Shown here in pieces: positions 9,931 through 25,200 of a stretch of DNA of 64,000 nt. The DNA comes from Roseateles depolymerans. Its GTDB lineage: Bacteria > Pseudomonadota > Gammaproteobacteria > Burkholderiales > Burkholderiaceae_C. A program made the translations under genes and the position numbers. The stretch is from positions 124,001 through 188,000 of the forward strand of contig NZ_QUMT01000006.1 of NCBI RefSeq assembly GCF_003387155.1, written 5' to 3'. The notes under the pieces are model-generated. The model saw only the letters and a list, made by a program, of their open reading frames with translations, had not been told where the DNA came from and made no database searches. Position 1 is the first letter of the stretch. Each line of letters starts with the position of its first letter.

Positions 9931-10162
9931 GGAAGCGTCTCCTTGTCAGGTTGGATCGAACCGACATCGGCGAGTGTCCTGGGATGGGCGCTGATCGTCA
10001 CTCACCCATCGGCAGCCCCCCTTCGGAAGGTAGCTCGCAACAGTCCGGTCATGCGATGCTAGGCCCCGCTGTGACGCCCGTCTGTCCCCCAAGCCATCCG
10101 CAGTGATGGCGCAGCCGCGGCAGCCACGGACGACCGCTTTCATTCAGATCAGGGAGATCACG

Positions 10163-11995
10163 TTGAAACCGATGCTGTCTTTGATGAAGTTGCTGCCAGT
10201 CCTAAGGGCCGTAAGGGCACTTACGGCCCTCACGGCGATAACGACCCTGCTGGGCGTGGCCCCAGCGGCCCGGGCTGCAAACTGCGAGATGGAGCCGATG
10301 ACGCTCCCGGTACGCCTGGTGGAGCACCGCGCGGTGGCCACGGTCACGGTGAACGGGCAGCCGCTGGACATGCTGGTGGACAGCGGTGCGTCGGTCAGCA
10401 TCTTGCCCGCCGCCACGGCCGAGCAACTCAAGCTCACGCTCCACATGATGCCCTTCGGCACCTACATGTATGGCCACACCGGTTCCATGGAAGCCAACCG
10501 GACCTGGGTGAAAACGCTGGGCTTCGGCAGCGCGGAACTGAAGAACGTGCTGTTCGTGGTGGGCGGCCATGAGCATGGGAACGGCATCCAGGGCATCCTG
10601 GGCCGCAACATCCTGGCCCTCGGGGACACCGAATACGACCTGGCCCACGGCATCGTCCGCCTGGTCTTTCCCAAGGGGGACTGCGAAGCGGTGAGCATGG
10701 CCTACTGGGCCAAGGACGCGCCCGTCATCGTCGCCCGGTTCGCCCCCCAGCCCCGTGGCGGAAGCGATGCCGCACGGGTGCAGGTCAAGGTCAATGGCGT
10801 GCCGATGACGGCGCTGATGGACACCGGCGCGCCGTCCACCAGTATTGCTTTGTCGTCCGCCCGCAAGGCCGGCCTGCAGGAAGGCGCCATGACGCCGTTC
10901 GGGCGGGCCGCAGGCCTGGGCGAGGACAAGGCACGACGCTGGCTGGCCGATTTCGACAGTTTCCAGATCGGCGGCGAGACCCTCACCCACCAGCGGCTGT
11001 TGGTGGACGACGTGGAAAACGACCACTACGACCTGCTGCTGGGGCTGGACTACTTCCTCGCTCACCGCGTGTATGTGTCGCGCCTGCAAGGCAAGGTGTA
11101 CGCTACCTGGAATGGCACCGGGGTCTTCGCGCAGTACCCCGGCGCCGCTCGCACTGAATGGGATACCCGTTTTGCCCTGACGCCAGACGCCATCGCGCCG
11201 GATGATGCGGACGGTTTGGCCCGACGCGGAATGGCGTTGCAGACCCAGGGCAAGCCCCGGGAAGCCCTGGAGGACCTGAACCGTGCCATTGCGCTGAAGC
11301 CGGAAGAAGCGCAATACCGCCTCGCGCGGGCGCGGGTGCATCAGGCCCTGCGACAGAGCAAGGAGGCGCTGGTCGATGTGGGCGAAGCGCTGCGCCTGGA
11401 CCCGGCCCTCCATACGGCCAGACTGCTGCGCGCCGAACTCATTGCCGCCAAGCCGGACCGAGCAGCGGCCTTGGCCGACCTGCGGCAACTGGACGCGCAA
11501 TTGCCGCCCACGGCCGGCGAGCGGGCCGACATGGGTGACCTGTACGCCAGCCTGGACCAGAAGGATGACGCCCTGCGGCAATATCAGCTGTGGCTGGCCA
11601 GCCATGGCAACGACCTCCGCCAGGCCCGGGTTTTCAACCAGCGCTGCTGGCTGCGCGCACGCACCGGCACGGAACTGGCCGATGCGCTGCAAGACTGCCA
11701 AAGTGCCCTGAAGAAAGATGGCGACGTGGCGCTGTTCCACTCGACGCTGGGGTGGGTCTACCTGCGACAAGGCGATGCCAGCAAAGCGATCAGCGCCTTC
11801 AATGCGGCCATTGAAAAGGATGGCCGCCTGAGCTGGGCCTACTTCGGGCGCGCGCTGAGCGAATGGCGTCAGCAGGACAACGTCAGCGCGGATCGAGACC
11901 TGGAGAAGGCCCGTCAATTGCGCCCTGGCATTGACGAAGCGGTGAAACGCGCCGGCTTCGAGGTGCCGCCGGCATGGACGCGGCCGGCAAGCTGA
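10163..11995 (+). CDS. exported double retropepsin-like protease with TPR region
   Basis: About 610 residues. I choose the TTG at 10163 because AGGGAG (10151-10156) precedes it at six bases; an ATG at 10172 is the alternative, and the frame is also open back to 10103. A signal peptide follows (hydrophobic core LTALTAITTLLGVAPAARA). Two aspartic-protease modules each carry a catalytic triplet: MLVDSGASVSIL, and about 150 residues later ALMDTGAPSTSIA. The C-terminal half (about 340-600) is built of TPR helices. Family knowledge supports a periplasmic or secreted retropepsin-fold protein, but its substrate is unknown. Two active modules in one chain could pair intramolecularly, as in pepsins. 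Confidence 0.8.
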   Translation: MKPMLSLMKLLPVLRAVRALTALTAITTLLGVAPAARAANCEMEPMTLPVRLVEHRAVATVTVNGQPLDMLVDSGASVSILPAATAEQLKLTLHMMPFGTYMYGHTGSMEANRTWVKTLGFGSAELKNVLFVVGGHEHGNGIQGILGRNILALGDTEYDLAHGIVRLVFPKGDCEAVSMAYWAKDAPVIVARFAPQPRGGSDAARVQVKVNGVPMTALMDTGAPSTSIALSSARKAGLQEGAMTPFGRAAGLGEDKARRWLADFDSFQIGGETLTHQRLLVDDVENDHYDLLLGLDYFLAHRVYVSRLQGKVYATWNGTGVFAQYPGAARTEWDTRFALTPDAIAPDDADGLARRGMALQTQGKPREALEDLNRAIALKPEEAQYRLARARVHQALRQSKEALVDVGEALRLDPALHTARLLRAELIAAKPDRAAALADLRQLDAQLPPTAGERADMGDLYASLDQKDDALRQYQLWLASHGNDLRQARVFNQRCWLRARTGTELADALQDCQSALKKDGDVALFHSTLGWVYLRQGDASKAISAFNAAIEKDGRLSWAYFGRALSEWRQQDNVSADRDLEKARQLRPGIDEAVKRAGFEVPPAWTRPAS

Positions 11996-12033: not shown

Positions 12034-12915
12034 TCAGGCCGATGTCACCGGTGGCGCCACCACTCCCGGCACCACCTCCCGCTGCCAGCACGGCCCTGCA
12101 TCGTCGATCTTGACGTAGGCACCGGCGCGGAATCCAGCGGCCTGCAGCGCCTCCACCGCAGTCTGCGCCGCCGGACCGGTGCGGCCGATACAGCCGCACG
12201 ATGCGTCATCCATCAGCGACGCATACAGCGGCAGCGCCGGCAGCAGGTCGGCCAGATCGCGTCGCCACTTCGGCCCCACGCCGGGCGCCTGGCCCTGCTC
12301 CGGCAGGAACCGCTCGCCCAGCCCGCGCCAGAACGGCGACTGTCCCTTCGGATCCCGGTGGCCTTGCAGCTCCACATAAAAGGTCGTTGGCACCGCCTCA
12401 GGTGCCGGTGACGTCGCTAGCGCAGGTGACGCCGATGCCGCCGTGGACGTCGTTGACCTCGCCGACGTCGGGGATGCCAAGCCCATCGATCCCCCCACAA
12501 TCGCCTGCAGCAGATGCCCCAGCTTCAGCGCCCCCTCCTGCGCCTCGGGGTCCACGGCCAGGTCGGTGATCTCGGTGGCATCACACAGGTCGTTGCCCAT
12601 CAGCAGAATCTGCTGCGGGTTGTAGAGCTGCAGCTCATCGCTGACATGCACCAGCTTGCCCACTCGGAAATGGAAGCGCAGTCCATCACTGGCCGCACTG
12701 GCCTGCGCCGGTGGCAGCGTGACGGCAGGCAGCGCTGGCACCACCCGCGCACAGGCGAGCGGCCGGTCCCGCGCCGGGTCCACCAGCACCCACAAGGACT
12801 GGCCCGCGCCCAGGCTCATCGACAGCGGCTCGCCCAGCTGATTTCGCCAGCCGCTCATCAAAGTGCGCCATGAGGTCGGCCACGCTGCCTGACTGTCCAC
12901 ACGTTCAAGCCTCAT
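12034..12915 (-). CDS. astA: arginine N-succinyltransferase, second (diverged) subunit
   Basis: A 293-residue AstA-like protein. The start at 12915 has AGGAGG seven bases upstream and overlaps the stop of the preceding astA by 11 bases; the frame is open slightly further upstream. AstA landmarks are present in weakened form: ILLMGNDLCDATEITDL, GQSPFWRGLGERF (compare GHSPFWSAVGERF in its partner) and a C-terminal VEALQAAGFRAGAYVKIDDAGP. A Ser/Thr/Ala/Pro-rich linker (about residues 150-185) is inserted mid-protein. Pseudomonads use two adjacent AstA-like subunits (AruF/AruG), and this pair looks the same. It transfers succinyl from succinyl-CoA to arginine, the first step of the AST pathway. 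Confidence 0.85.
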   Translation of the reverse strand: MRLERVDSQAAWPTSWRTLMSGWRNQLGEPLSMSLGAGQSLWVLVDPARDRPLACARVVPALPAVTLPPAQASAASDGLRFHFRVGKLVHVSDELQLYNPQQILLMGNDLCDATEITDLAVDPEAQEGALKLGHLLQAIVGGSMGLASPTSARSTTSTAASASPALATSPAPEAVPTTFYVELQGHRDPKGQSPFWRGLGERFLPEQGQAPGVGPKWRRDLADLLPALPLYASLMDDASCGCIGRTGPAAQTAVEALQAAGFRAGAYVKIDDAGPCWQREVVPGVVAPPVTSA

Positions 12916-14065
12916 CACCGTCCTCCTGCGCGACATCGTCCAGTTGCAGCGGCGTCACGTCCACCCGCTCCCCGGCCTTCACCCCGAGCCGCCGCGCCGC
13001 CTCGCTGTCGGCCGGCAAAGTCCCGCTCGTCGGCAGCAGACCCAGGCAGGCCCGGAACGAGCAACGGTCTCCCGCCACCATGAGGCCCCAGGCCGGAGGC
13101 GCATCGGCCGATCGGGCCTGCGCTCTTGGCCGCTCCTGGTCAAGACCCGGGCGTTGACTCGAGACCTTATTCGAGCCGCTACTTCCGCCATCAAGCGGAC
13201 CTTGCCCCGCCCCAGCCCCTTGCACCGTGAGGCTCCTCGCCGCGCGCACCGTGGCGATCTGGTCCAGATGCGCCACCACCGTCGGCCCGGCGTCAAACAC
13301 ATCCACGTAGGTATCCGCTTCAAAGCCCTCCCGGAACAGGATCTCAAAGGGCAACTGCCCAACCGGATGCAACTGCCCGATGCTCATCTGCGCCGCCGGC
13401 GGCAGCAGTCCCACATACACCGGCGTGCGGGGCATCAAATCGGCAATCAGCGACCGGCTGCGACCCTCGCTGACGCGCTCCGCCTCCGGATAACTCATCT
13501 TGAAGAATCGCTCACCCACCGCCGACCAGAACGGCGAATGCCCCTCCCCATCGGAGATGCCGGGCATCTCGGCCGCCACGCGTGGACCCGGGAACCGATC
13601 CGCGAAGCGCCGGATGAACAGCAAACGCGCCCGCGACAGGAGCTCCGGCGCCACCGTGTCCTCGAACTCGGGTTCGATGAAGAACGACGTGAGCAGCGTC
13701 GAGCCGGTGAGGTCATGGCACAAGTGCAGCGTGTGCATCCGCTTGTTCACATGCAGCCCCTTGGAGGCATGCACCATGAATTCATTGCGGTAGCTGTAGA
13801 AGCGTTCCCGGAATCCCGCGCTGGCGGCGATGCCGCTGCAGCCAATCACCCTGCCCTGCCACTCCAGCAGGAACAGGTAGGACTCCTCCCCGCTGGCCAC
13901 GTCTTCGGACTGGAAGGACTGCTCGGCCAGTTCCAGCCGTCGCAGCAGCCGCTGCGGGTTTTTGGGCAGCGAGCCGATGCCGTGCACGCTGGAGGCGGCA
14001 ATCCGCTCCAGCGCCGGCAGATCGGCCACGCCCGCCGGGCGCAGCCACAGGTCTTGCGGATTCAT
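12905..14065 (-). CDS. astA: arginine N-succinyltransferase (AstA/AruF-like)
   Basis: A 386-residue AstA. Typical motifs run in order: the N-terminal LRPAGVADLPALERIA with SLPKN; the VIGCSG and RNEFMVHASKGLHVNKRMHTLHLCHDLTG region (each part well conserved in AstA); AAEMPGISDGEGHSPFW; and PFEILFREGFEADTYVDVFDAGPTV. The C-terminal ~110 residues after the AHLDQI position are longer than in E. coli and include a low-complexity Gly/Ser stretch. Its ATG overlaps the stop of the upstream AraC regulator (ATGA), so the two are co-transcribed. The rest of the AST pathway (astB, C, D, E) is not in the window. Confidence 0.95.
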   Translation of the reverse strand: MNPQDLWLRPAGVADLPALERIAASSVHGIGSLPKNPQRLLRRLELAEQSFQSEDVASGEESYLFLLEWQGRVIGCSGIAASAGFRERFYSYRNEFMVHASKGLHVNKRMHTLHLCHDLTGSTLLTSFFIEPEFEDTVAPELLSRARLLFIRRFADRFPGPRVAAEMPGISDGEGHSPFWSAVGERFFKMSYPEAERVSEGRSRSLIADLMPRTPVYVGLLPPAAQMSIGQLHPVGQLPFEILFREGFEADTYVDVFDAGPTVVAHLDQIATVRAARSLTVQGAGAGQGPLDGGSSGSNKVSSQRPGLDQERPRAQARSADAPPAWGLMVAGDRCSFRACLGLLPTSGTLPADSEAARRLGVKAGERVDVTPLQLDDVAQEDGDEA

Positions 14066-15264
14066 GAACCCTCTCCTGGATCACGGGCGGAGGCCTCGGT
14101 CGGTCCGCCGGGCGAGCGTTCCTCGCGGGGCGTACGGCCGAAGCGGGCCTTGTAGGCATTGGAAAAATGCGGTCCCGACGAGAACCCGCAGCTCAGCCCC
14201 ACCTGCAGGATGGACTGGCCGCTCTGCAGCAGCAGCCGGCGCGCCCGCTGAAGCCGCAACTCCAGGTAATGGCGGGAGGGCAGCGTGTCGAGATGCCGCT
14301 TGAACAGGCGCTCGAGCTGACGGCGGGACACGCCGCACAGCCGGGCCACGTCCTCGGTGGGAAGCGGCTCGCCCAGGTTGGCTTCCATCAGCGCCAGGGC
14401 CTCCCTCAGCTTGGGGCTGGCGGTCTGGCTCAGGCGGTTGGGACGCGGCTGGGATTCATCACCGGGCCGGCCCCGCTCCAGGCCCAGCAGCGGGGCGAGG
14501 TCGGGCAGCAGGTGGTCGCCATGACGCTCTCCGATCCAGGCCAGCAAGGCGTCGATCAGCGCAGTGCCGCTGGTGGCAGTTAGCACGAGCGTGCCAGGCG
14601 CTGCGGGCGAGCTGACGTGACTGACAGCAGCGCCTGCATGGGTGCCCGCGGATCCGCCATGGGGAGCCGCAGATCCGGCATGGATGCCTGCGGAGCCGGC
14701 GTGGATCCCTGAAGCGCCGACTTGGGATCCCATCGCTCCGACATGGGTGCCCGCAGCGGCGATGTGGGCCGTCGCACTGGTCCACAGCTGCGTCGTCCAC
14801 AGCACCTGCGGATATTCGGCTTGAAGCGCTTCCGCGCTGCTCCACGGGCAGGCCGCGCGCAGGCCATCCAGCAGCCCCGCCTGAGCCAGCAGACTCACCG
14901 CGCTGCCGCTGGCGCACAGGGTGCAGCCCTGGCTCGCCAGACTGCGCAGCGCGTCGATCATCGGGCCGCTGTCCGACGGCGCCAGTCCGGCCCCATCAAA
15001 GCCAATGTCGATATGGGCTTCCTGCCCCACCAGCACCATCAGCCCCCAGGGCGACTCGACCCGCAGCGGCTCGGTCTCCACCCGCAGGCCGGCACTGCCG
15101 GTCATGGCGCCGCCCCGGAGCGACACCACCCGCGGCGCCAGCAGATAGGGTTGGTCGAGCAGATCGGCCACGGCCTGGAGCGTGGACAGCGCCGCGCCCA
15201 ACGCCAATGCCGAACACCCTGGCAGAACCAGGGCCGCGGTCGGGGCGTAGCGGGAGTCACTCAT
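14062..15264 (-). CDS. AraC-family regulator with GATase1-like domain (ArgR-like)
   Basis: About 400 residues. The N-terminal half resembles the DJ-1/GATase1-like sensor domain of GlxA/ArgR-type AraC regulators. The C-terminal ~100 residues are a complete AraC double HTH (EDVARLCGVSRRQLERLFKRH, then a second helix pair ending GFSSGPHFSNAYKARFGRTP). Pseudomonas ArgR has this architecture and activates the aru (arginine succinyltransferase) genes. Here the stop overlaps the astA start (ATGA), which supports the same role. The start is MSDS at 15264; a GTG at 15288 is in frame. A glycine/histidine-rich heptad repeat is inserted between the two domains. Confidence 0.85.
   Translation of the reverse strand: MSDSRYAPTAALVLPGCSALALGAALSTLQAVADLLDQPYLLAPRVVSLRGGAMTGSAGLRVETEPLRVESPWGLMVLVGQEAHIDIGFDGAGLAPSDSGPMIDALRSLASQGCTLCASGSAVSLLAQAGLLDGLRAACPWSSAEALQAEYPQVLWTTQLWTSATAHIAAAGTHVGAMGSQVGASGIHAGSAGIHAGSAAPHGGSAGTHAGAAVSHVSSPAAPGTLVLTATSGTALIDALLAWIGERHGDHLLPDLAPLLGLERGRPGDESQPRPNRLSQTASPKLREALALMEANLGEPLPTEDVARLCGVSRRQLERLFKRHLDTLPSRHYLELRLQRARRLLLQSGQSILQVGLSCGFSSGPHFSNAYKARFGRTPREERSPGGPTEASARDPGEGS
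14613..14763 (-). repeat. in-frame 21-bp minisatellite in the AraC regulator
   Basis: About seven degenerate copies of a 21-base unit encode seven-residue repeats such as SAGIHAG, ASGIHAG and SAGTHAG inside the regulator. The units remain in frame and the flanking domains are intact. Confidence 0.75.
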
Positions 15265-15307
15265 GGGCGGGCAGCATGCACGCCGCACTGTAGCGCGGCC
15301 GCGGTAC

Positions 15308-16819
15308 TCACCATCCCACCCATTGCGGGGCCAGCATCGGCACGGCCAGCATGATCAGCGCCAGCACCACGAAGGCCAGTTGCAAGGGCAGCATCCATCG
15401 CACCCAGCGGCCGAATGGAATGCGGGCCAGGCTCAGCACCCCCACGGTGATGCCGGAGGTCGGGATGATGGGCGTGGTCAGTTCTCCAAACTGGAAGGCC
15501 AGGATGGCGCTCTGACGGCTGACATTCACCAGGTCACTCAGCGGCGCCATCACCGGCATGGTCAGCGCGGCCTGGCCGGTCCCGCTGTGGATGAAGAAAT
15601 TGATGACGGACTGGATGCCGAACATCTTGTAGAGCGACAGCGTCGCATGCTCGGACGCCACCAGCGGCGCCAGGCTGTGCAGCAGGCTGTCGATGATCTG
15701 CGCGTCCCGCATCAGCACCACCGTGCCCTTGGCCAGCGCAATCACGAGCGCCGTCCCTGCCAGGTCCTTGGCCCCGGCCAGGAAGTGCTGCACCCAGGAC
15801 TCGGCGCCCATGCGGGCCAGCACGCCCACCAGGATGGCCATCGCCAGGAAGACGGCGGCAATCTCCTCGATGTACCAGCCGTACTTCACCACGCCCACCA
15901 TCATCGTCACCAGCGTGCCGGCAAAGGCCAGCAGCACCAGGCGCTGCCGCATCTGGATGCCGGTGAAGGCGCGCATGGCCGCCAGGTCCAGGTCGGCGCG
16001 GCGCTGCTGGTCGTCCTCGAAACAGGCGCTGGCCTGCGGATGCCGACGAATGCGGGCCGCATGCCACATCAGGAAGGCAATGGTGACGCCGGTGAACAGC
16101 ACCCAGCACACGAAGCGGTAGCCCAGCCCCGAGAAGAGCGGCAGCCCGGCCAGCCCCTGGGCCACACCGACGTTGAAGGGATTGAGGAAGGCGGTGGCGA
16201 ATCCCACCTGGGACCCAACAAACGGGATGGCCACGCCGATGAAGGTGTCGTAGCGCAGGGCAAGCGCCAGCGGCACGAAGATCAGCACGAAAGGAATGGC
16301 TTCCTCCGCCATGCCGAAGGTCGCCCCGCCCAGCGAGAACAGCCCGACAAAGCCGGGGATCAGCAGCGCCCGCACCAGGGCGGAGCGTTCATGCGCTTTC
16401 GCCACCGACTTGATCAGCGCATCGATGGCCTGGGTGGCCTGCAGCACTGCAAAGGCGCCGCCCACGATCAGCACGAAGCCGATGATCAGTCCCGCTTCCA
16501 CAAAGCCCTTGATCGGTGCCATCAACACCGCGGCTGGCCCCTGCGGATGACTGGGCACAGCCTGATAGGAACTGGGGTCGATCACCGGCTTGCCGTCCAC
16601 CATGACCGTGGCGTACTTGCCGCCGGGCACGAACCAGGTGAGCAGCGCGATCAGCACCAGCAGGCCGAAGATCAACACGAAGGTGTTGGGCAGCTTCAGC
16701 CGACGGAGGAAGGACGGCGGGGGCTGGCCCGCGTCGATGCGCCGTGGTGGGTCACCAGCGGCGGACGCGGAGATCGAGGACGGCGGCGTGGACGCGGCGT
16801 GCAGGGTGGGTGGCGTCAT
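15308..16819 (-). CDS. YfcC/DcuC-superfamily membrane carrier
   Basis: A 503-residue integral membrane protein with a ~40-residue polar cytoplasmic N-terminus and about 12 hydrophobic helices. Features of the YfcC/C4-dicarboxylate-anaerobic-carrier superfamily are visible: the TWFVPGGKY loop after the first helix, GGATFGMAEEAIPF, and FLNPFNVGVAQGLAGLPLFSG. Superfamily members carry short-chain acids, dicarboxylates or basic amino acids. Its place between the ArgR-like regulator and the cyanophycin hydrolase suggests uptake of beta-Asp-Arg, arginine or aspartate across the inner membrane; that is an inference. Confidence 0.8.
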   Translation of the reverse strand: MTPPTLHAASTPPSSISASAAGDPPRRIDAGQPPPSFLRRLKLPNTFVLIFGLLVLIALLTWFVPGGKYATVMVDGKPVIDPSSYQAVPSHPQGPAAVLMAPIKGFVEAGLIIGFVLIVGGAFAVLQATQAIDALIKSVAKAHERSALVRALLIPGFVGLFSLGGATFGMAEEAIPFVLIFVPLALALRYDTFIGVAIPFVGSQVGFATAFLNPFNVGVAQGLAGLPLFSGLGYRFVCWVLFTGVTIAFLMWHAARIRRHPQASACFEDDQQRRADLDLAAMRAFTGIQMRQRLVLLAFAGTLVTMMVGVVKYGWYIEEIAAVFLAMAILVGVLARMGAESWVQHFLAGAKDLAGTALVIALAKGTVVLMRDAQIIDSLLHSLAPLVASEHATLSLYKMFGIQSVINFFIHSGTGQAALTMPVMAPLSDLVNVSRQSAILAFQFGELTTPIIPTSGITVGVLSLARIPFGRWVRWMLPLQLAFVVLALIMLAVPMLAPQWVGW

Positions 16820-16943
16820 GGGGCACCTGGAAGGCGGTCAATGGATTGGGAGGGACCAGAGAGGGGACAGTGACAAGGCAATGGGACGACATCAGCGTGA
16901 ACGGGAGCGCCTCACGCGCCGAGCCCCGCAAGAGCCCCTCCCA

Positions 16944-18062
16944 TCAAGGTGACAGCAACGGCCCCGCCCGATACGGCGTCGGCCCGGCGATCTTGGCCAG
17001 CCGCATGCCGCGCGTGACCCAGCGCCGTGCGATCCGGGCAAACAGCACCCCGTCGACCTCCGCCCGGACGGGCACGCGCAGGCGGCTGGCCGGGTCCACG
17101 ATCTCGGCGACGCAATCGCCGGCCGCCACCCGCTCACCGAGCTGCCGCAGGAAGACCAGAATGCCGCTGCCCGGCGCCACCAGCGGCTGCACGCCCGCGA
17201 GAGGCGTGGCCGCGCAGCGCGGGGCAGGCAGCATCGCCGCCGGTCCCGCGACATGGCCGGTGTCCTGCAGAAACTCGATCAGGCCCTGGGCGTCCTGGAC
17301 GGCCAAGCCATCTTCCACGTCCGTCTCCCCGCGCAACTCCACGGTCGCCGCAAAGCAGCCGGCCGTGAGCGGATGCTCTGGCCCGAAGCGCTCAGGCAGT
17401 TCCCACCAGTGGCGAGAGAGCGATTCGTCGAAGGGATCGTCCCCCGAGCATTCGCACAGCAGCAGCGCCTTGGCCCCCAGCCGCTGCGCCAGCAGCCGTG
17501 CGGTGGACGCCTGCGGCGTGCCTGCATACACATGCAGACAGGCCTGATGGTCGCAGTGCAGGTCCAGCGCAATGTCGGCATCCACGGCCAACTGCTGGAG
17601 CAACTGCTTGAGCGCCTCGGTCTCGGTCTGCGGGGAAAGATCGGCCAGCACCTGCTGCGCCGCCTCGCGCACCCATTGCGTGTTCATCGCTGCATCCGGC
17701 CCCAGCAGCGGCTGCACCCGCTCCGCGATACGCGCCGTCAGATGCTGGAACTGTCGATTGAAGTTGATGCCGGAGGCCTGGTCAAAGCGCCCGAAGTGGC
17801 TGCCCTGCACCGTCTGGGACAGCCCGATCGGATTGGCCATCGGCACCAGCACGATTTCCCCGGCAATGGCCCCGGTCTCCTCCAGGCCCTGGAGCATGGC
17901 CTGCAGATGGTGGGCCACCAGCATGGCCGGAACCTCGTCCGCATGCAGCGAGGCCTGCAGATAGACCTTGCGCCCGCTCATGCGCTGGCCGAAATGCAGG
18001 CTGGTCACCACACGCCGGGTGCCGCGCGAGGCGCCAGGCAATTCATGGTCACGGACTTCCAT
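16944..18062 (-). CDS. M14-type succinylglutamate desuccinylase/aspartoacylase-family hydrolase, CphZ-like
   Basis: About 372 residues. The start is the ATG at 18062 (GGGAGG eight bases upstream, two bases after the cyanophycinase stop); a TTG at 18068 is in frame. The family zinc site is present: ASLHADEVPAML (His and Glu ligands), then ALDLHCDHQA (His ligand), and a late TVELRGETD with the catalytic-type Glu. A C-terminal beta barrel-like region follows. AstE removes succinate from N-succinyl-amino acids; beta-Asp-Arg has the same shape with an added amino group. I recall that M14 enzymes of this kind linked to cyanophycinase genes have been described as cyanophycin dipeptide hydrolases (CphZ). 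The fused position after cyanophycinase makes that the best call. Confidence 0.8.
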   Translation of the reverse strand: MEVRDHELPGASRGTRRVVTSLHFGQRMSGRKVYLQASLHADEVPAMLVAHHLQAMLQGLEETGAIAGEIVLVPMANPIGLSQTVQGSHFGRFDQASGINFNRQFQHLTARIAERVQPLLGPDAAMNTQWVREAAQQVLADLSPQTETEALKQLLQQLAVDADIALDLHCDHQACLHVYAGTPQASTARLLAQRLGAKALLLCECSGDDPFDESLSRHWWELPERFGPEHPLTAGCFAATVELRGETDVEDGLAVQDAQGLIEFLQDTGHVAGPAAMLPAPRCAATPLAGVQPLVAPGSGILVFLRQLGERVAAGDCVAEIVDPASRLRVPVRAEVDGVLFARIARRWVTRGMRLAKIAGPTPYRAGPLLSP

Positions 18063-18064
18063 GC

Positions 18065-19510
18065 TCAAGGCCTCCCGGTCGGCGACGAGGCCGGCAGCGG
18101 AGCGCCCTGTGGCGCCACGATCGGGACGTACAGGGGGCTGTTCACCCGCACCGGCCGCACGTCCAGGTGGACGTTCACCACGGTGTAGTCCTCGCCGCCG
18201 AAGGCGCCGGTGAACCAGCCCCGGGTGCCCGGACCCTTGTACAGGCGGAACTCAAAACCGGGCTGCCCCCGCACCTCACCCTGCGGCCCCAGCCGTGCGG
18301 CGAGTCCCCGCAGCTCGGAGGCCGGGCTGTCGAGCAGTTGCGCCATGGCCTGCGCGATGGTGTTGTCGCCCAGGATGTCCGGATAAAACGGCTCGTTCTT
18401 GAAATAGGGTTTGAAGTCCGATGCGGCAGGATCGATCGGGCTGCTGCTGCGCTTGGCCTCGGACGCAGTGACCACACCGGTCTTCAGATCGATCCGGTCC
18501 CCACGCTCCAGGTAACTGAGCCGCGCATTCTGCAGATTGAAGGCGCCCAGGGTGCTGTCGGTGCGGGCGTCGCGAAGGTCCACGAACAAGGCGCCGCGTG
18601 CGCCGATCACCTCGGCCTGATGGCCCTTGATGACCGCCGCGCTGTTTTCCTCGATGCCCAGCCCCACGCGCAAGCCTTGCGCCACCATCAGCGGCAGCAT
18701 GCGGCCGATGCGGCCTCGCTTGAGGAAGTGCTGGTCGATGAACAGGTCCGGCCCGACGAATCCGAGCCCCTGGTCGATCTCGCGGCCCGGTCGCAGTTGT
18801 CCGCCCAGCACCTCCATCACATCCTGCGCATCGCGGAACATCACGCGGCTCATGATGGCCGCGCCCGCACTGGTGCCGGCCACCACGCCGCCGCGGCGAT
18901 AGACGTCCCAGATGGCATCGAGCATCGGCGTGGGCTTGCCGCCAGGCTGGAAGGTGGCGGTGATGTGTTCCTGCGCGCCGCCTGAGAAGAACACGCCGCG
19001 CGCCGACCGGACCTTGTCCAGCAGGACCGGGTCGCGCAGCGCGGCAGCCAGTTGATCCGCGGGCAGTTGCGGCGTGATGGCCAGGGCCTCGGCCCTGGCT
19101 CCTCGCCGGTTCAGCGCCTCCACAATCTGGGCTGCCGAGCGCGCGGGATTGGCCGCCGCCGTGCCGAAGACCACGAAGCGCGCCTGCGGCCCACCGGCTT
19201 CATCCACCACGCGTTGCCACACGCTGTCGTTGTCGAACTTGAGCGCACCGCCGATGACGACGGCGGTCTGCGCCTGCGCCAGCGTGCTGCCCAGCAGCAG
19301 CGCCGCACCCAGCGCCCACCGGGCACGATGCCGCAATGGGGCCCACGAGGAGCCCGACGACAAGCGCCATGACGAGCCCCACGAGGAGCACCGCGACGAG
19401 CACCGCAAGTCATGCCCCGTGCGCTGCGAGCTGAGACGCCGCACGCCGCCAAGATCAGCACCGGCCGTTGACCGCCGGGCGCTCCACAAAGAACTGCAAG
19501 AGATGTGCAT
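18065..19510 (-). CDS. exported cyanophycinase (S51 family, CphE-like)
   Basis: Hydrolyses cyanophycin, the Asp backbone/Arg side-chain polymer, to beta-Asp-Arg. The serine nucleophile is in GTSAGAAIMSR. FFSGGAQEHI and FIDQHFLKRGRIGRM supply the other family signatures, so the S51 active site looks complete. A clear signal peptide core (WALGAALLLGSTLAQAQ) precedes the mature protein, so it acts in the periplasm or outside the cell. The N-terminus is uncertain: the start given (19510) leaves ~58 odd Ser/Arg-rich residues before the signal peptide, encoded by a repetitive stretch at 19338-19415. A TTG at 19336 would give a normal 22-residue signal peptide but has no visible ribosome-binding site. 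Confidence 0.9.
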   Translation of the reverse strand: MHISCSSLWSARRSTAGADLGGVRRLSSQRTGHDLRCSSRCSSWGSSWRLSSGSSWAPLRHRARWALGAALLLGSTLAQAQTAVVIGGALKFDNDSVWQRVVDEAGGPQARFVVFGTAAANPARSAAQIVEALNRRGARAEALAITPQLPADQLAAALRDPVLLDKVRSARGVFFSGGAQEHITATFQPGGKPTPMLDAIWDVYRRGGVVAGTSAGAAIMSRVMFRDAQDVMEVLGGQLRPGREIDQGLGFVGPDLFIDQHFLKRGRIGRMLPLMVAQGLRVGLGIEENSAAVIKGHQAEVIGARGALFVDLRDARTDSTLGAFNLQNARLSYLERGDRIDLKTGVVTASEAKRSSSPIDPAASDFKPYFKNEPFYPDILGDNTIAQAMAQLLDSPASELRGLAARLGPQGEVRGQPGFEFRLYKGPGTRGWFTGAFGGEDYTVVNVHLDVRPVRVNSPLYVPIVAPQGAPLPASSPTGRP

Positions 19511-19583
19511 GGCCCCATGGTGCAACCGCGCCGGGGGAATGCAGACAGGGTTGCACCTGAGTGGTGAATTCCCTGCAAGGCTT

Positions 19584-19619
19584 TGTCGCAATGCTGCAAG
19601 CAGGTGGTGCAGGCCACGA
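19584..19619. promoter_or_regulatory. ArgR-like (AraC type) binding site in the divergent promoter
   Basis: TGTCGC (19584-19589) is followed by eight bases and AA (19598-19599), a perfect TGTCGC-N8-AA half-site of the kind known for Pseudomonas ArgR. Five bases on, TGGTGC-N8-AC is a degenerate second direct-repeat half-site. Two more TGTCGC words lie at 19637 and 19704 without the full pattern. The site sits between the cyanophycinase and the TonB receptor. TGTCGC alone is not rare in GC-rich DNA. Confidence 0.45.
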
Positions 19620-19787
19620 CGCGGCTGCGGGGCCGTTGTCGCGCCGCTTGCAGCGAAGCGACGCCGTCTTGCGTTGGAGCGACGGCCTCACCAAAACCCG
19701 ATGTGTCGCGGTGGACACCGACTTCTAGAGTGCATCGCAAGGACGGCACGGCGCCGGCCTGAGCCCCCCCAACTACCCGAGTTCGTC

Positions 19788-22487
19788 ATGGTCATCACCA
19801 AGGTTTTGCGTCCGCACGCCATCGCCCAGGCCACCGCCCTGCTTCTGCTGTCCACCGCCGCCGCCGTCCATGCCCAGGAGGGCAACAGCCAGACGCTGGA
19901 ACGGGTGGAGATCACCGGCTCCAGCATCAAGCGGCTGGAAGGCGAAACCGCGCTGCCGGTGCAGACCGTGCGGCGGGAAGACATTGCCAAGACCGGCGCC
20001 ACCACCGCCGCCGAGCTGATGCGCAACATCAGCGGCAATGCCGCCGGCCTGACCGACGGCGCCAGCATCAGCGACAACAACGGCGGCCAGCGCGGCTTCA
20101 ATGGGGCCAACCTGCGCGGCATTGGTGTCTCCAGCACGCTGGTGCTGCTCAATGGCCGGCGCCTGGCCAATTTCGCATCGCCGGGCGACAGTGCTGGCGT
20201 TGACTTGAACAACATCCCCGCCGGCGCCATCGAGCGCGTGGAAATCCTCAAGGACGGCGCGTCCGCCATCTACGGCACCGATGCCATCGGCGGCGTCATC
20301 AACTTCATCACCCGCAAGGACTATCGTGGCGTCGACCTGAATGTGTATGCCGCCGGCACCGACGAAGGCGGTGCGGGCAAGCGGGCGGCCTCGGTGTCCG
20401 GCGGATATGGCGACCTGGCCGCTGCCGGCTTCAACGTCTTCGGCGTGCTGGATGTGCAAAAGCTCGATGCGCTGCGCTCCACCCAGCGCAAGTTCCTGCG
20501 CGAGCGGCCGCTGTCCGAGCTGCTGCCCTACTACATGTCCACCCGCCCCTATCCGGCCAACCTGCGGCTGTCAGGCTCCGCGGCGACCCGTGCGGCGCAG
20601 CTGGCGGCCATCAATGCGGCCGGGTATTCCATCAGCGGCCAGCCCTTTACCGACCGCAACATCAACCTGTTCGCGCCGGACTGCAACCCGCCCGCCAGCG
20701 TCTTCACGCCGGGCACGCAGACCTGCGGCTATGACTACATGGCCGACACCGAGATCTATCCGGACGCCAGCAAGACCAGCTTCCTCGGCCGCGGCGTGCT
20801 GAAGATCAACGACCGCAGCCAGGCCTTCCTGGAAGTGCTGCGCAGCCGGGCGGAGACCACCTATGTGCTGTCGCCCAACCCGACGAATTTCACCGGGGTC
20901 AGCGTCGCAGCGCTCAATCGCAACCTGCAGCGCCCCATCAACTACAACGGCACGGTGGACATCCGCATGCGGGCCACCGAGCTGGGCAACCGCTCCAACG
21001 AAGTCACCAGCGATGCCGAGCGGTATGTGGCGGGCCTGACCGGCACCTTCGCCAATGACTGGGACTACTCGCTGGCCGCGAGCTATGCCAAGAACAAGTC
21101 GCAGGACAAATACGTCAACGGCTACTTCCTCTTCGACAAGCTCGATGCCGCCATCAAGTCGGGCGATGTGAATCCCTTCGGCCCGTCGTCGGACGCCGGC
21201 AAGGCGGTGATCGACAGCATCCGGGTCAACGACGTCGCTCGCAAATCCAGCGGCACGACGCAGGGCGTGGATGCCAAGCTCACCGGCTCGCTGATGGAGC
21301 TGGCCGGCGGACCGCTGGGCATGGCGCTGGGCGCGGAGCTGCGTCGTGAGACACAGTCCTTCACCCCGTCGGCGCTGCTGGTGTCCAACAACATCGGCGG
21401 CGACCGGGACAGCTCGCTGGCACCCGGCGAGGCGGACGCGTCGCTCAAGGCCACGAGCAACCGCCGCAACATCGCCTCCGCCTACACCGAGCTGAGCGCA
21501 CCGCTGCTCAAGACCCTGGAGGTGCAGGCCGCCTTGCGCTTCGACCACTACCAGGGCGTGGGCAACACCACCAATCCCAAGCTGGGCCTGCGCTACCAGC
21601 CCAGCCGCCAGTTGCTGCTGCGGGCCTCGGCCGGCACGGGCTTTCGCGCACCGTCGTTCAGCGAGCTCTATCGCCCCACCAGCTATGGCTCCAGCCCCGC
21701 CTTCCTCTACGACCCGGTGCTGGACACCTTCGACCAGTGGGCCACCCGCAAGGAATCCAATCCCGACCTGAAGCCGGAGCGCTCGCAGCAGTTCTCGGCC
21801 GGCGTGGTGTTCGAGCCGGCCCGCGACATGAGCGTCAGCCTCGACTACTGGCTGATCAAGAAGCGGGACGTCATCAGCGACCTGAACGGCAAGACGATTC
21901 TGGAGAACCCGCAGCGTTATGCGGCCTACATCGAGCGCGACGAGTTCGACGAGCCGACCATCATCCTGCGCAAGGAGAACCAGGGCCGGCTCAAGACCTC
22001 GGGGCTGGACCTGGAAGCCAACGTTCGCAGCAGCCCCACCGCCTGGGGCCGATTCGGCCTGAACCTGAGCGGCACCTACGTGCTGGAGTACAAGCGCCAG
22101 TTCGGACCGCTGGAGCCGTATGTGAGCAACCTGGGCCGCTTCCTGAATGACCAGGTCATCCAGCGCTGGCGCCATCGGGCCTCGCTGGATTGGGAATATG
22201 GGGACTTCAATGTCACCCTGGGCAACACCTTCTACAGCGGCTACCAGGACGACAGCTATCTGCCCGACACGGCGCCCCGCCGCGTCAAGGCCTATTCGCT
22301 GTGGGACATGTCCGGGGCCTGGCGCATCAACCGCATGCTGCGCGTGCGAGCCGGCATCCAGAACCTGGCCAATACCGCGCCGCCGTTCTCCAACCAGAGC
22401 TACTACTTCCTCTCCACCTATGACCCCACCTACACCGACCCGCGCGGCCGGACCTTCTACGCCAGTGTGAACCTGTCGTTCAAGTAA
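19788..22487 (+). CDS. TonB-dependent outer-membrane receptor
   Basis: About 899 residues. The frame is open ~700 bases upstream, but the real start is the ATG at 19788: it begins a typical signal peptide (ATALLLLSTAAAVHAQ), followed by a TonB-box-like LERVEITGS. The plug domain shows ALPVQTVRREDIAKTGATTAAELMR, GANLRGIG, VLLNGRRLANF and VEILKDGASAIYGTDAIGGVINFITR, in pieces typical of the Xanthomonas/Caulobacter receptor class. The rest is the beta barrel, ending with aromatic-rich FYASVNLSFK. The receptor is divergent from the cyanophycinase, so a cyanophycin fragment or beta-Asp-Arg is the likely ligand (inference). Confidence 0.92.
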   Translation: MVITKVLRPHAIAQATALLLLSTAAAVHAQEGNSQTLERVEITGSSIKRLEGETALPVQTVRREDIAKTGATTAAELMRNISGNAAGLTDGASISDNNGGQRGFNGANLRGIGVSSTLVLLNGRRLANFASPGDSAGVDLNNIPAGAIERVEILKDGASAIYGTDAIGGVINFITRKDYRGVDLNVYAAGTDEGGAGKRAASVSGGYGDLAAAGFNVFGVLDVQKLDALRSTQRKFLRERPLSELLPYYMSTRPYPANLRLSGSAATRAAQLAAINAAGYSISGQPFTDRNINLFAPDCNPPASVFTPGTQTCGYDYMADTEIYPDASKTSFLGRGVLKINDRSQAFLEVLRSRAETTYVLSPNPTNFTGVSVAALNRNLQRPINYNGTVDIRMRATELGNRSNEVTSDAERYVAGLTGTFANDWDYSLAASYAKNKSQDKYVNGYFLFDKLDAAIKSGDVNPFGPSSDAGKAVIDSIRVNDVARKSSGTTQGVDAKLTGSLMELAGGPLGMALGAELRRETQSFTPSALLVSNNIGGDRDSSLAPGEADASLKATSNRRNIASAYTELSAPLLKTLEVQAALRFDHYQGVGNTTNPKLGLRYQPSRQLLLRASAGTGFRAPSFSELYRPTSYGSSPAFLYDPVLDTFDQWATRKESNPDLKPERSQQFSAGVVFEPARDMSVSLDYWLIKKRDVISDLNGKTILENPQRYAAYIERDEFDEPTIILRKENQGRLKTSGLDLEANVRSSPTAWGRFGLNLSGTYVLEYKRQFGPLEPYVSNLGRFLNDQVIQRWRHRASLDWEYGDFNVTLGNTFYSGYQDDSYLPDTAPRRVKAYSLWDMSGAWRINRMLRVRAGIQNLANTAPPFSNQSYYFLSTYDPTYTDPRGRTFYASVNLSFK

Positions 22488-22618: not shown

Positions 22619-23392
22619 ATGAGTCTTCTGCCCTTTCTCTCCCGTCGGCCGGCCACGGCCGATGACGGCGTCACCCGACCCGTCGGCGCGACGGCCGTGG
22701 CCGCCCACGACAAGGGTGCGGCGTACGAAGCGCACGCCATGCGCTCGCGGACCGCTCCGACGCCCAGCACAACAGCCCGGCCCGTCACCGGGCTGGGTCG
22801 TTTCTGCTCGCTGGCAATGCTGGCCTGTCTGTCTGCGGCGCTGATGGTGCTGCCAGCCGACCCGGTGCATGCGGACGAAGCGCCATTGCCCACCGTCAGC
22901 ACGGTGGACCTCGCCCGGTATGCCGGCAGCTGGTATGAGATCACCAAGCTGCCCAACCGCTTCCAGAAGCAATGTGTGGCGGACACGCAGGCCGAGTACC
23001 GCCTGGACGGGGACATCGTGCGGGTGATCAACCGCTGCCGCACCTCCACCGGCGAGCTGGACGACATCAAGGGCCGTGCCAAGGTCGTGCCGGGCAGCGG
23101 CAATGCCAAGCTCAAGGTGACCTTCTTCTGGCCCTTCTACGGCGACTACTGGGTGCTGGCCCTGGACCCGGACTACCGCGAGGTGCTGGTGGGGGCGCCG
23201 GACCGCAAATATGCCTGGATCCTGTCGCGCACGCCGACGATGCCGCAGGCGCGCGTGGACGCGCTGCTGCAGCGGGCCAAGGCGCTGGGCTTTGATGCCG
23301 ATGCTTTCGTGGCCACGCCGCAGACGCAGCCCCTGACTGCCGTACAGCCCGCCGCGGCTCCCGCTGCGCTGCCGGCGCCTTCCGCGCCCTGA
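22619..23392 (+). CDS. lipocalin family protein (Blc-like)
   Basis: Up to 257 residues. The lipocalin domain (about 95-235) opens with YAGSWYEITKLPNRFQ, the Blc signature (GxW plus the conserved N and P), followed by a strand-rich region with FFWPFYGDYWVLALDPDY and YAWILSRTPTM. A hydrophobic export segment (LAMLACLSAALMVLPADPVHA) lies at about residues 65-88. The start is therefore uncertain: an ATG at 22739 would put the signal peptide nearer the N-terminus, and neither ATG has a strong ribosome-binding site. Bacterial lipocalins bind lipids or lysophospholipids and are often stress-induced. Confidence 0.88.
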   Translation: MSLLPFLSRRPATADDGVTRPVGATAVAAHDKGAAYEAHAMRSRTAPTPSTTARPVTGLGRFCSLAMLACLSAALMVLPADPVHADEAPLPTVSTVDLARYAGSWYEITKLPNRFQKQCVADTQAEYRLDGDIVRVINRCRTSTGELDDIKGRAKVVPGSGNAKLKVTFFWPFYGDYWVLALDPDYREVLVGAPDRKYAWILSRTPTMPQARVDALLQRAKALGFDADAFVATPQTQPLTAVQPAAAPAALPAPSAP

Positions 23393-23401
23393 AGGTCCGC
23401 C

Positions 23402-23587
23402 ATGAGCCGCGGCCAAGGCGCATCCAGCGGGTTCCGCGGGAACAAGTCCTTCCTCCCCTCCAAGCCCTGCGTCGCTTGCGGCCGCGCCATGACCTGGCGC
23501 AAGGCCTGGGCCCGCAACTGGGACCAGGTCCGGTACTGCTCCGACGCCTGCCGCAAGCGCGGCGCTGCTGAAGGGACTTCGCGATGA
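23402..23587 (+). CDS. DUF2256 small zinc-ribbon-like protein
   Basis: A 61-residue protein with two cysteine pairs (KPCVACGRAM and YCSDACRKR) and a conserved WRKAWARNWDQVRYC core, characteristic of DUF2256. The Cys arrangement suggests metal binding. The family is repeatedly found beside cryptochrome/photolyase genes. Here its TGA overlaps the photolyase ATG (ATGA at 23584), so the two are translationally coupled. Confidence 0.85.
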   Translation: MSRGQGASSGFRGNKSFLPSKPCVACGRAMTWRKAWARNWDQVRYCSDACRKRGAAEGTSR

Positions 23588-25200
23588 GCGCATTGGGACC
23601 GGTGCGCACGCTGGTGATCGTGCTGGGGGACCAGCTCGACGCCGACGCCAGCGCCTTCGACGATTTCGATGCCGCCACCGACCGCGTCTGGATGGCCGAG
23701 GTGCGCGAGGAATCGACCCATGTGTGGTCCAGCCGCATCCGCATTGCGCTGTTCCTCTCCGCGATGCGGCACTTTGCCAACGAGATGGTCAGCCTGGGCC
23801 GTCCGCTGGACTACGTCACGCTGGACGATGCCGACAACACCGGCAGCCTCGCCGGTGAACTGGCCCGCGCGGTCCAGCGACTGCAGCCCCAGCGCCTGGT
23901 GATGACCGCGCCCGGCGACTGGCGTGTGCTGCAGTCGCTGCGATCGGCGGCGAGCGACGCCGGCCTGCCCCTGGAGGTCCGGGACGACCGCCACTTCTTC
24001 TGCACCGTGCGCGAATTCGCCGCGTTCGCCAAGGAGCGCAAGGGCCTCCGCATGGAGACCTTCTACCGGATGATGCGCAAGCAGCATCGGGTGTTGATGG
24101 ACGGAGACGAACCCGCTGGCGACCGCTGGAATTTCGATGCCGAGAACCAGCAGGCCTTCGGTCCTGATGGACCCGGCTTCCTGCCGGAGCGGGTGGGCTT
24201 TCCGCCAGATGCGATCACGCAGGAAGTGATCGACCTGGTGAACCGCGCATTCGCAGACCACCCCGGATCGCTGGACGCCTTCGACTGGCCCGTCACCCGC
24301 GCGCAGGCACAGCACGCGCTGACCCGCTTCATCAATGAACGCCTGTGCGACTTCGGCCAGTGGCAGGACGCGATGTGGCCGGACACGCCGTGGCTCTGGC
24401 ATGCGCATCTGTCGGCCGCACTGAACCTGAAGCTGATCAGCCCCAAGGAAGTGGTGGCGCAGGCAGAGCAGGCCTGGCGCAACGGGCATGCCCCGCTGGC
24501 CAGCGTGGAAGGCTTCATCCGCCAGGTGCTGGGCTGGCGCGAGTATGTGCGCGGCGTCTACTGGACGCGCATGCCCGAGCTGGCGCAGGCCAATGCGCTG
24601 GATGCGCAGCAGCCCCTGCCCGCTTTCTACTGGACGGGCGATACCGATCTGCGCTGCCTGGCCGATGCGCTCAAGCAGACGCTGCAACTCGGGTATGCCC
24701 ACCACATCCAGCGACTGATGATCACCGGTCTCTACGCGCTGCTGCTGGGCGTGCGGCCCAGCGAAGTGCACGAGTGGTATCTGTCCGTCTACGTGGATGC
24801 GGTGGAATGGGTGGAGATGCCCAACACGCTCAGCATGAGCCAATTTGCGGACGGCGGCGCCATCACCAGCAAACCCTACATTGCGAGCGGCAAGTACATC
24901 GAACGACAGAGCAGCGGCAAATATTGTGCCGACTGTGCTTACCGGCCCGATCAGCGCGTCGGCCCTCAGGCTTGCCCGTACACCACGCTGTATTGGGACT
25001 TCCTCATCCGTCACCGCTCGAAGTTTGCGCGTCATCCGCGCCTGGGTGCGCAGGTGAGGAACCTGGACCGACTCTCGAATGAAGAGCTTTCCGCGATCAC
25101 GGCGCAGGCCCAGGCCCATCGGGACCGATGGCACGTTCAGCCCGTGTTCATCGAAGATGTGCGCCATCGCACCCAGAGTAACAAACAAAAAAATTCCTGA
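23584..25200 (+). CDS. FeS-containing bacterial cryptochrome/(6-4) photolyase family protein
   Basis: A 538-residue protein of the photolyase-related (FeS-BCP, PhrB-like) family. The N-terminal alpha/beta domain starts LVIVLGDQLDADASA and would hold the lumazine-type antenna; the C-terminal helical domain binds FAD. Four cysteines in the expected places could hold the 4Fe-4S cluster: one in TDLRCLADAL, two in KYCADCAYR and one in PQACPYTT. Members repair (6-4) photoproducts or act as photoreceptors. It is coupled to DUF2256 and lies in a likely light-stress cluster. Length is normal. Confidence 0.92.
   Translation: MSALGPVRTLVIVLGDQLDADASAFDDFDAATDRVWMAEVREESTHVWSSRIRIALFLSAMRHFANEMVSLGRPLDYVTLDDADNTGSLAGELARAVQRLQPQRLVMTAPGDWRVLQSLRSAASDAGLPLEVRDDRHFFCTVREFAAFAKERKGLRMETFYRMMRKQHRVLMDGDEPAGDRWNFDAENQQAFGPDGPGFLPERVGFPPDAITQEVIDLVNRAFADHPGSLDAFDWPVTRAQAQHALTRFINERLCDFGQWQDAMWPDTPWLWHAHLSAALNLKLISPKEVVAQAEQAWRNGHAPLASVEGFIRQVLGWREYVRGVYWTRMPELAQANALDAQQPLPAFYWTGDTDLRCLADALKQTLQLGYAHHIQRLMITGLYALLLGVRPSEVHEWYLSVYVDAVEWVEMPNTLSMSQFADGGAITSKPYIASGKYIERQSSGKYCADCAYRPDQRVGPQACPYTTLYWDFLIRHRSKFARHPRLGAQVRNLDRLSNEELSAITAQAQAHRDRWHVQPVFIEDVRHRTQSNKQKNS

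Follow-up and report, generated by a model that had tools for sequence, protein, structure and literature searches.

The window analysed here, a stretch of 64,000 nucleotides from Roseateles depolymerans (contig NZ_QUMT01000006.1, positions 124,001 to 188,000), carries between its positions 12034 and 22487 a conserved set of seven genes which most likely takes up and degrades cyanophycin, a microbial nitrogen-storage polymer, probably under the control of arginine. That this set is a real, conserved and specialised version of an already known type of locus is well supported, and its reading as a cyanophycin utilisation locus under arginine control, with the functions predicted from sequence, is given a probability of about 0.75. 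All seven open reading frames (ORFs) claimed by an earlier reading of the DNA letters alone (the original prediction) are present, and their family assignments were confirmed with Pfam and NCBIfam profiles. A gene for a TonB-dependent receptor (TBDT) diverges from a run of six genes, which encode an exported cyanophycinase (cphB), an M14 enzyme resembling CphZ, a YfcC-type carrier, an ArgR-like regulator of the AraC type and two proteins of the AstA family (astA1 and astA2).

The claim that these genes form one co-inherited locus holds in a set of 200 genomes of the same family, in which TBDT, CphZ and AstA co-occur with CphB. Matches to CphB were found in 46 of the 200 genomes at E ≤ 1e-10, and 34 of them reach E ≤ 1e-70, a cut of our own by which a genome is called CphB-strong and which leaves out the 12 of 46 matching genomes with best E values of 1e-26 to 1e-15. 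Relatives of the TBDT, at a cut likewise our own (E ≤ 1e-150), occur in 29 of the 200 genomes, all of them among the 34 CphB-strong ones (hypergeometric 4e-30, a value in which the kinship of the genomes overstates their independence), and CphZ is present at E ≤ 1e-40 somewhere in the genome in 34 of 34 CphB-strong genomes, plus 24 genomes outside that group. Absences are bounded by the number of candidates scored per genome, which was up to 8 for CphB, 4 for TBDT, 4 for CphA and 7 for astD.

Comparison of gene neighbourhoods, in maps joined by position from tblastn pieces, shows the same gene order recurring in many genomes, more than by chance. It extends to 80 added loci, the best 80 of 442 relatives, which come mostly from Roseateles, Mitsuaria, Pelomonas, Paucibacter, Ideonella, Inhella and Rubrivivax, together with Niveibacterium and a metagenome-assembled genome (MAG) of the Steroidobacteraceae. 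A divergent TBDT stands at 82 of 116 distinct CphB places, and CphZ lies downstream at 59 of the 116, these places having been de-duplicated by identical DNA only and the relatives not being independent. Three architectures recur, with the divergent pair written as TBDT<>cphB: TBDT<>cphB-cphZ-yfcC-araC-astA1-astA2, as in the window; TBDT<>cphB-aotJQM-cphZ-aotP-araC-astA1-astA2; and the bare pair TBDT<>cphB. Seen from the receptor, a cphB is no more than 1 kb away at 29 of 41 TBDT places, in divergent orientation at 28 of these; of the 12 remaining places, some stand at the opposite end of the same cluster (G062, G174) and some adjoin AstA or CphZ (G011, G084).

The gene cphB (18065..19510, minus strand) most likely starts, judging by the matching starts in the related loci L092 and L094, at the ATG at 19510, with a TTG at 19336 as the alternative, and either start gives an N-terminus that by eye resembles a signal peptide. 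The predicted identity of its product is borne out by a score of 131.1 bits against the TIGR02069 equivalog (cut-off 126.6) and by a structural model with a predicted local distance difference test (pLDDT) score of 89, for which the closest Foldseek matches are the solved cyanophycinases 7UQV, 7UQW and 3EN0. The residues S142, H189, E216, Q108, R193, R195 and R198 are invariant in 31 aligned sequences, among which the DQHF-R-R-R motif varies little or not at all; we take these Ser, His, Glu, Gln and Arg residues to be the cyanophycinase site. The C-terminal ~150 residues fall outside the TIGR02069 match. Sequence and fold together support the assignment of CphB to the cyanophycinase class, with the release of β-Asp-Arg as its predicted activity, and the exported enzyme would cut cyanophycin to this dipeptide in the periplasm or at the cell surface. 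Among the best 80 of the 442 relatives, the closest CphB of a named organism is that of a Rubrivivax MAG (91%), followed by those of Roseateles terrae (85%) and Mitsuaria chitosanitabida (77%). R. terrae CECT 7247 (L093) and M. chitosanitabida (L094) share the architecture of the window, though in L094 the contig stops behind the AraC gene. The alignments joined the window to 36 of 66 usable stretches (A2), 30 of 63 (A3) and 15 of 27 (A4). The signal region of cphB carries 24-bp and 12-bp repeats (19343-19406) and, if the shared ATG is the start, is ~54 codons longer than that of L094.

At least three S51 proteins, on contigs C6, C1 and C2, are encoded by the host genome (8 of 16 candidates scored), all of them with starts that look by eye like signal peptides. 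The third (L032:7183-8550, G000:C2) has 456 amino acids, a signal-peptide-like start and a TIGR02069 score of 98.4 bits, below the cut-off, and its relatives adjoin astA2 in L053, L055, L096, L098 and L104 at 80-85% identity; in the host itself it sits among genes that by eye resemble those of pectin use (KduD/KduI-like). The second cyanophycinase-like gene (L031:8980-12104, G000:C1), also exported, scores 120.9 bits, just below the TIGR02069 cut-off. Neither an adjoining TBDT nor the operator pattern TGTCGCN8AA described below was found at this second gene, which faces a gene for a family-5 peptide-binding protein (PF00496).

The M14 enzyme, of the AstE/AspA type, is encoded at 16944..18062 on the minus strand, its ATG at 18062 standing two bases past the cphB stop that ends at 18065, as had been described. 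In phmmer it matches 8EIN with 236.7 bits as compared to 98.1 bits for the next protein, 3FMC, and 8EIN/8EIP are far closer to it than either of two further chains matched. Both 8EIN and 8EIP bear the name succinylglutamate desuccinylase in the PDB, and we take them to be CphZ. The earlier assignment of the enzyme as CphZ-like is consistent with this, and it is proposed from sequence to be a cytosolic dipeptide hydrolase which would, with very high likelihood, split β-Asp-Arg into Asp and Arg. A separate aotJ-aotQ-aotM-cphZ-aotP-like cluster of the host (L075, G000:C2), with a binding protein of the Lys/Arg/Orn type, encodes an AotO-like (CphZ) protein with 48% identity to the M14 enzyme of the window.

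The regulator gene (14062..15264, minus strand, with a GTG at 15288 as alternative start) overlaps astA1 by 4 nucleotides, confirming the overlap with astA seen earlier, and encodes an HTH_18 domain; the best NCBIfam match of the protein is GbdR, at 180 bits (cut-off 480). ArgR of Pseudomonas combines an AraC helix-turn-helix with a GATase1/DJ-1-like N-domain. A DJ-1/PfpI N-domain is weakly matched in the window protein (E=0.17), reaches 28.6 against a cut-off of 26.6 in the orthologue of L048, lies below the cut-off in L042 and is not among the domains listed for L096 or L107. The window protein (408 amino acids as an ORF) exceeds its L048 counterpart (327 amino acids) by ~80 residues, and its two parts are separated by a GIHAGSA-like stretch that stems from 21-bp repeats at 14632-14731.

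The designation ArgR-like gains from a predicted operator in front of TBDT and cphB. The pattern TGTCGCN8AA, chosen for the search after the operator of ArgR, has 61 sites in 46 of the 82 distinct TBDT-cphB regions, where 200 dinucleotide shuffles lead one to expect 1.1 and never give more than 6, and a density of 1.39/kb inside versus 0.030/kb outside these regions (68 sites in 49 kb versus 78 in 2.6 Mb, not de-duplicated). Positions that the pattern leaves unfixed show GCAA five bases ahead and GC before the last AA, that is, the tandem form. The published ARG box, the operator of Pseudomonas ArgR, is a tandem repeat of TGTCGCN6GNAA with 5 bp between the copies (PMC10963909, in the part available). 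Where the locus contains the AraC gene, 38 of 44 regions carry this stricter motif, versus 0 of 24 bare TBDT-cphB pairs (Fisher 4e-13), a bare pair being one with nothing recognised downstream in at least 8 kb of sequence; the looser pattern gives 42 of 44 versus 0 of 24, and occurs at 1 of 27 cphB genes without an adjoining TBDT. In the 5.66 Mb of the host genome there is a single exact tandem box (GNAAN5TGTCGCN6GNAA), located at 19575..19599 on the plus strand of the window, along with 17 sites with one mismatch, one of which lies 73 bp beyond the exact box in the same region (19648..19672, minus strand); most of the other tandem sites of the host fall within long open frames in a rough ORF test.

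The tandem box, with its 5-bp spacing, is predicted at a further promoter as well: each of the six copies of the third S51 gene, that of the host among them (at 117 bp, one mismatch), is preceded by it within 200 bp of the matched stretch, with one mismatch at most, while shuffling leads one to expect about 0.01-0.03 or fewer even at two mismatches. Because tandem boxes stand upstream of all of them, the TBDT, cphB and the third S51 gene are tied into one predicted arginine regulon. The ArgR-like protein, with arginine as its likely effector, would in all likelihood activate the divergent TBDT and cphB promoters through these ARG boxes.

In the absence of a cyanophycin synthetase gene from the window, the original prediction had suggested a scavenging host; a search of the whole genome overturned this argument, as cphA was found at G000:C3:410523-413087 (967.5 bits, cut-off 850), with a CphA-like gene next to it. 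CphA matches at E ≤ 1e-50 are present in 31 of the 34 CphB-strong genomes (2 of them below the curated cut-off) versus 101 of the 166 others. This enrichment and the two synthetase-like genes of the host would suit a locus for the turnover of the cell's own cyanophycin, in which polymer that the host population releases would be recovered by exported CphB and the TBDT. Such a role is considered improbable, given that the three S51 proteins of the host, with their signal-peptide-like starts, should not meet cytosolic granules, for which an outer-membrane importer would also be useless, and that cphA lies on another contig. Since the S51 proteins detected start like exported ones and the host has cphA, the locus belongs to a cyanophycin-making bacterium and probably finds its polymer outside the cytosol. 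With a synthetase in the host, lysed kin may supply the polymer eaten in addition to other microbes. That β-proteobacteria with cphA1 rarely have a recognised cyanophycinase is stated as a puzzle in the portion of PMC10206079 considered here; in the group studied here cyanophycinases do exist, but they look exported.

The TBDT (19788..22487, plus strand; 899 amino acids, with a signal peptide and the Pfam Plug and barrel domains) starts at the ATG at 19788 and not, as given earlier, at 19074. Its model (pLDDT 80) shows a generic TBDT fold, the closest structures being PfeA/FepA, Cir and BtuB. On that ground the protein could be a receptor of general or metal-related function whose gene only happens to share a promoter region with cphB, with β-Asp-Arg entering via porins, which the dipeptide should fit, after CphB has acted outside; some cphB-cphZ loci are indeed without a TBDT. 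The confinement of TBDT relatives to CphB-strong genomes (29 of 29, with the 4 best candidates per genome scored), the divergent pairing with cphB at 82 of 116 distinct places and the position of the ARG boxes between the two genes speak against this, and make a general receptor rather unlikely. The reading preferred here, and moderately favoured, is that the TBDT would pass oligomers or short polymer of cyanophycin through the outer membrane; because the dipeptide should pass porins, oligomers or polymer are the more likely cargo. Presented earlier as a novelty, such a receptor for cyanophycin fragments had in fact been put forward in 2012, on the basis of neighbouring genes in Citromicrobium, as stated in the passages of PMC3400609 compared.

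A second member of this TBDT family, ~50% identical and unlinked to the locus, is encoded in the host at L074:8206-11076 (G000:C1), near a gene of the arginase superfamily (PF00491, 81 bits) and what looks by eye like a GntR/MocR-like regulator; an unlinked second copy is present in several other genomes too. Tandem TBDT-cphB pairs, in which a bare pair directly precedes a full locus, are seen in L097, L102, L103, L114 and L115, which suggests local duplication.

The carrier gene (15308..16819, minus strand) scores 310.1 bits against the DcuC superfamily PF03606 (cut-off 23.1) and 358.2 bits against the YfcC equivalog NF008611, below the cut-off of 500. In 59 cphB-cphZ loci a YfcC-type carrier is found in 24, an Aot importer, recognised by AotJ and AotQ matches only, in 23, both in none and neither in 12, several of which keep an AotP- or AotM-like gene. 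Because the carrier occupies the position of Aot and the two never occur together in these 59 loci, it seems to take the place of the Aot importer in the branch to which the window belongs. The nearest NCBIfam family, matched below its cut-off, is named putative basic amino acid antiporter, and the carrier might accordingly export or exchange a product, for example in arginine/ornithine antiport, instead of importing the dipeptide; its occupation of an importer's position, in 24 as against 23 loci and never jointly, renders this doubtful. There is a slight preference for import, in which the YfcC-type carrier would bring in β-Asp-Arg, or Arg, in place of the Aot importer.

The last two genes on the minus strand, astA1 (12905..14065) and astA2 (12034..12936), overlap by 32 nucleotides and encode an arginine/ornithine N-succinyltransferase-like protein and its strongly diverged paralogue. 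AstA1 exceeds the cut-off of the subfamily model TIGR03243 (326.3, cut-off 284.35), lies below both equivalogs (337.6, cut-off 458.8; 262.9, cut-off 391) and has as its closest phmmer match, at 289 bits, 1YLE, the alpha chain of arginine N-succinyltransferase; AstA2 matches PF04958 with 92 bits and is under the cut-off of all four AstA NCBIfam models. The predicted catalytic residues of AstA are a Leu and a His, L125 and H229, according to the section of PMC12375414 used here. AstA1 keeps the motif Leu in 16 of 16 aligned copies and the His in 15 of 16, while in AstA2 the His is replaced in the alignment to 1YLE and the column is not conserved among 38 AstA2 sequences; AstA1 is thus probably the catalytic subunit and AstA2 probably a non-catalytic partner. 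Proteins of the AstA family occur in 20 of the 200 genomes, all 20 among the 34 CphB-strong ones, and their genes adjoin cphB, cphZ or the TBDT gene in all 19 genomes mapped; in G182 they are on a separate contig (G182:C18) from the rest of the locus, which ends at a contig edge.

The original prediction let AstA open the classical catabolism of arginine. A check for the further genes of the arginine succinyltransferase (AST) pathway gave no astB in any of the 200 genomes at E ≤ 1e-30, nor in the host, no astD over the cut-off or at E ≤ 1e-140 in any of the 200 (with at most 7 candidates per genome scored), and no astE over the cut-off in the 200, with one weak fragment in the incomplete genome G093; the PF04952 profile has no match in the host. 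The same searches were positive in control genomes, for astB, astD and astE in E. coli and for astB and astD in Caulobacter. Since astB, astD and astE were not found at the models' cut-offs, AstA is not an entry to the known pathway; the classical AST route is rejected for the locus, and the pathway seems absent from the family genomes examined. By homology, the most likely role of AstA1/AstA2 is the succinylation of arginine or ornithine, the pair probably acting on the arginine released or on ornithine from the host arginase. One form of this proposal, which is given somewhat less than an even chance, is an ornithine succinyltransferase like AstO of Acinetobacter that receives its substrate from arginase, the remaining steps falling to general enzymes of the ArgD, dehydrogenase and desuccinylase types and astB being unneeded. 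The host arginase (TIGR01229 293.4, cut-off 227.6), the Leu and His kept in AstA1 and the AstO precedent in the section of PMC12375414 used are consistent with it; the result that neither astD (at most 7 candidates per genome scored) nor astE exceeds its cut-off in any of the 200 genomes is not, and Acinetobacter, by the same section, also has a full ast operon.

Put together, these parts would allow a more far-reaching scheme, a system for taking up a non-ribosomal polypeptide, in which the TBDT takes whole chains into the periplasm, exported CphB and the co-regulated third S51 protein digest them privately, the ArgR-type protein senses arginine, the YfcC-type carrier imports the dipeptide, and a stand-alone AstA1/AstA2 feeds arginine or ornithine derived from cyanophycin into an N-succinyl route that runs without the known AST enzymes. 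This scheme as a whole is regarded as speculative and rather unlikely. What the computations establish for the locus is its gene content, the co-occurrence of its genes, the conservation of the operator and, at the models' cut-offs, the lack of AST genes, while the cargo of the TBDT and of YfcC, the direction of regulation and the substrate of AstA are what we infer. If the scheme were true, the family of YfcC-type carriers would gain a substrate; the locus in any case makes testable the feeding of a TBDT on cyanophycin, the cargo of YfcC and the role of an arginine succinyltransferase without the rest of its pathway.

Several observations weigh against cyanophycin utilisation under arginine control, or against parts of it. 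All counts are drawn from related genomes; a TBDT is missing from the surrounding 1 kb at 17 of 46 CphB places, and 5 of the 34 CphB-strong genomes are without a TBDT relative at the cut used. The fold of the TBDT, from which a ligand was sought, was uninformative on this point. The separate aot-like cluster of the host, with a CphZ of its own, means that YfcC need not import the dipeptide, and 12 of the 59 loci have neither importer by the criteria used. The host and most relatives with cphB also carry CphA. With regard to regulation, bare TBDT-cphB pairs are without the box (0 of 27 in all), and the 500 bp upstream hold no box in any of the 3 loci that keep the AraC gene and lack a TBDT beside cphB. 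Finally, once a single mismatch is tolerated, the host has fewer copies of the tandem pattern (18 sites) than of the reversed pattern that served as control (56), and therefore only sites in upstream regions that recur in relatives were used.

Cyanophycin utilisation loci, as described by Ben Hania et al. and cited in the portion of PMC10206079 considered, are clusters of a cyanophycinase, an isoaspartyl dipeptidase and a transporter that serve scavenging. The locus of the window likewise clusters a cyanophycinase, a dipeptidase and a transporter; it differs in that CphZ replaces IadA, in the addition of the TBDT, the ArgR-like regulator with its ARG boxes, YfcC and the AstA pair, and in that most genomes carrying it also have CphA. 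In Pseudomonas, CphZ (AotO) is reportedly encoded in the arginine importer operon aotJQMOP-argR, with an AraC-type argR, as Sharon et al. are said to have described in PNAS in 2023. The Aot-type loci found here share that gene order, with an exported cyanophycinase and a TBDT added in front and the AstA pair behind, whereas the branch of the window has YfcC instead of the ABC importer. In P. putida, argR ends the importer operon, as the available part of PMC10963909 has it. A TBDT gene close to a cyanophycinase gene, as here, was described for Citromicrobium sp. JLT1363 by Tang et al. (2012, PMC3400609), who named cyanophycin as a substrate from this context; that report concerns one genome, and CphZ, a regulator, an operator and co-occurrence evidence do not appear in its passages compared.

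The aruF-aruG genes are two AstA genes in a row. The two successive AstA genes of the locus resemble this AruFG/AST arrangement, astA1 being closest to the 1YLE alpha chain, and depart from it in having no astB match and no astD or astE over the cut-off in the 200 genomes, and in an AstA2 without the motif His. In Acinetobacter baylyi, the cyanophycin synthetase ACIAD1279 and the ast genes ACIAD1284-1289 bear neighbouring locus tags (PMC6971185, in the part seen); astA, astD, astB and astE are present there, while the locus here has AstA alone and no synthetase gene. Among the literature matches listed, with subscription journals outside the coverage, PMC3400609 alone ties a TBDT to a cyanophycinase, and the link between regulator and operator, the exchange of YfcC and Aot, the third S51 gene and an AstA pair without AST enzymes were not found in the titles and abstracts of these matches, which are mostly non-subscription literature. 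Cyanophycin utilisation loci, CphZ in the aot operon (reportedly) and a TBDT near a cyanophycinase (2012) are therefore already known; new here are the regulator-operator link, the YfcC/Aot exchange and AstA without the AST enzymes, AstA proteins being confined in the 200 genomes to those with this cluster.

A search of the locus for sigma-70-like promoters found none, and terminator matches were at chance level. On the side of astA2, and convergent with it, window positions 10103-11995 encode two retropepsin-like aspartic protease domains fused to TPR repeats. On the opposite side, at 22619-25200, a lipocalin gene (PF08212) lies directly 3' of the TBDT gene and is followed by a gene that by eye looks related to photolyases.

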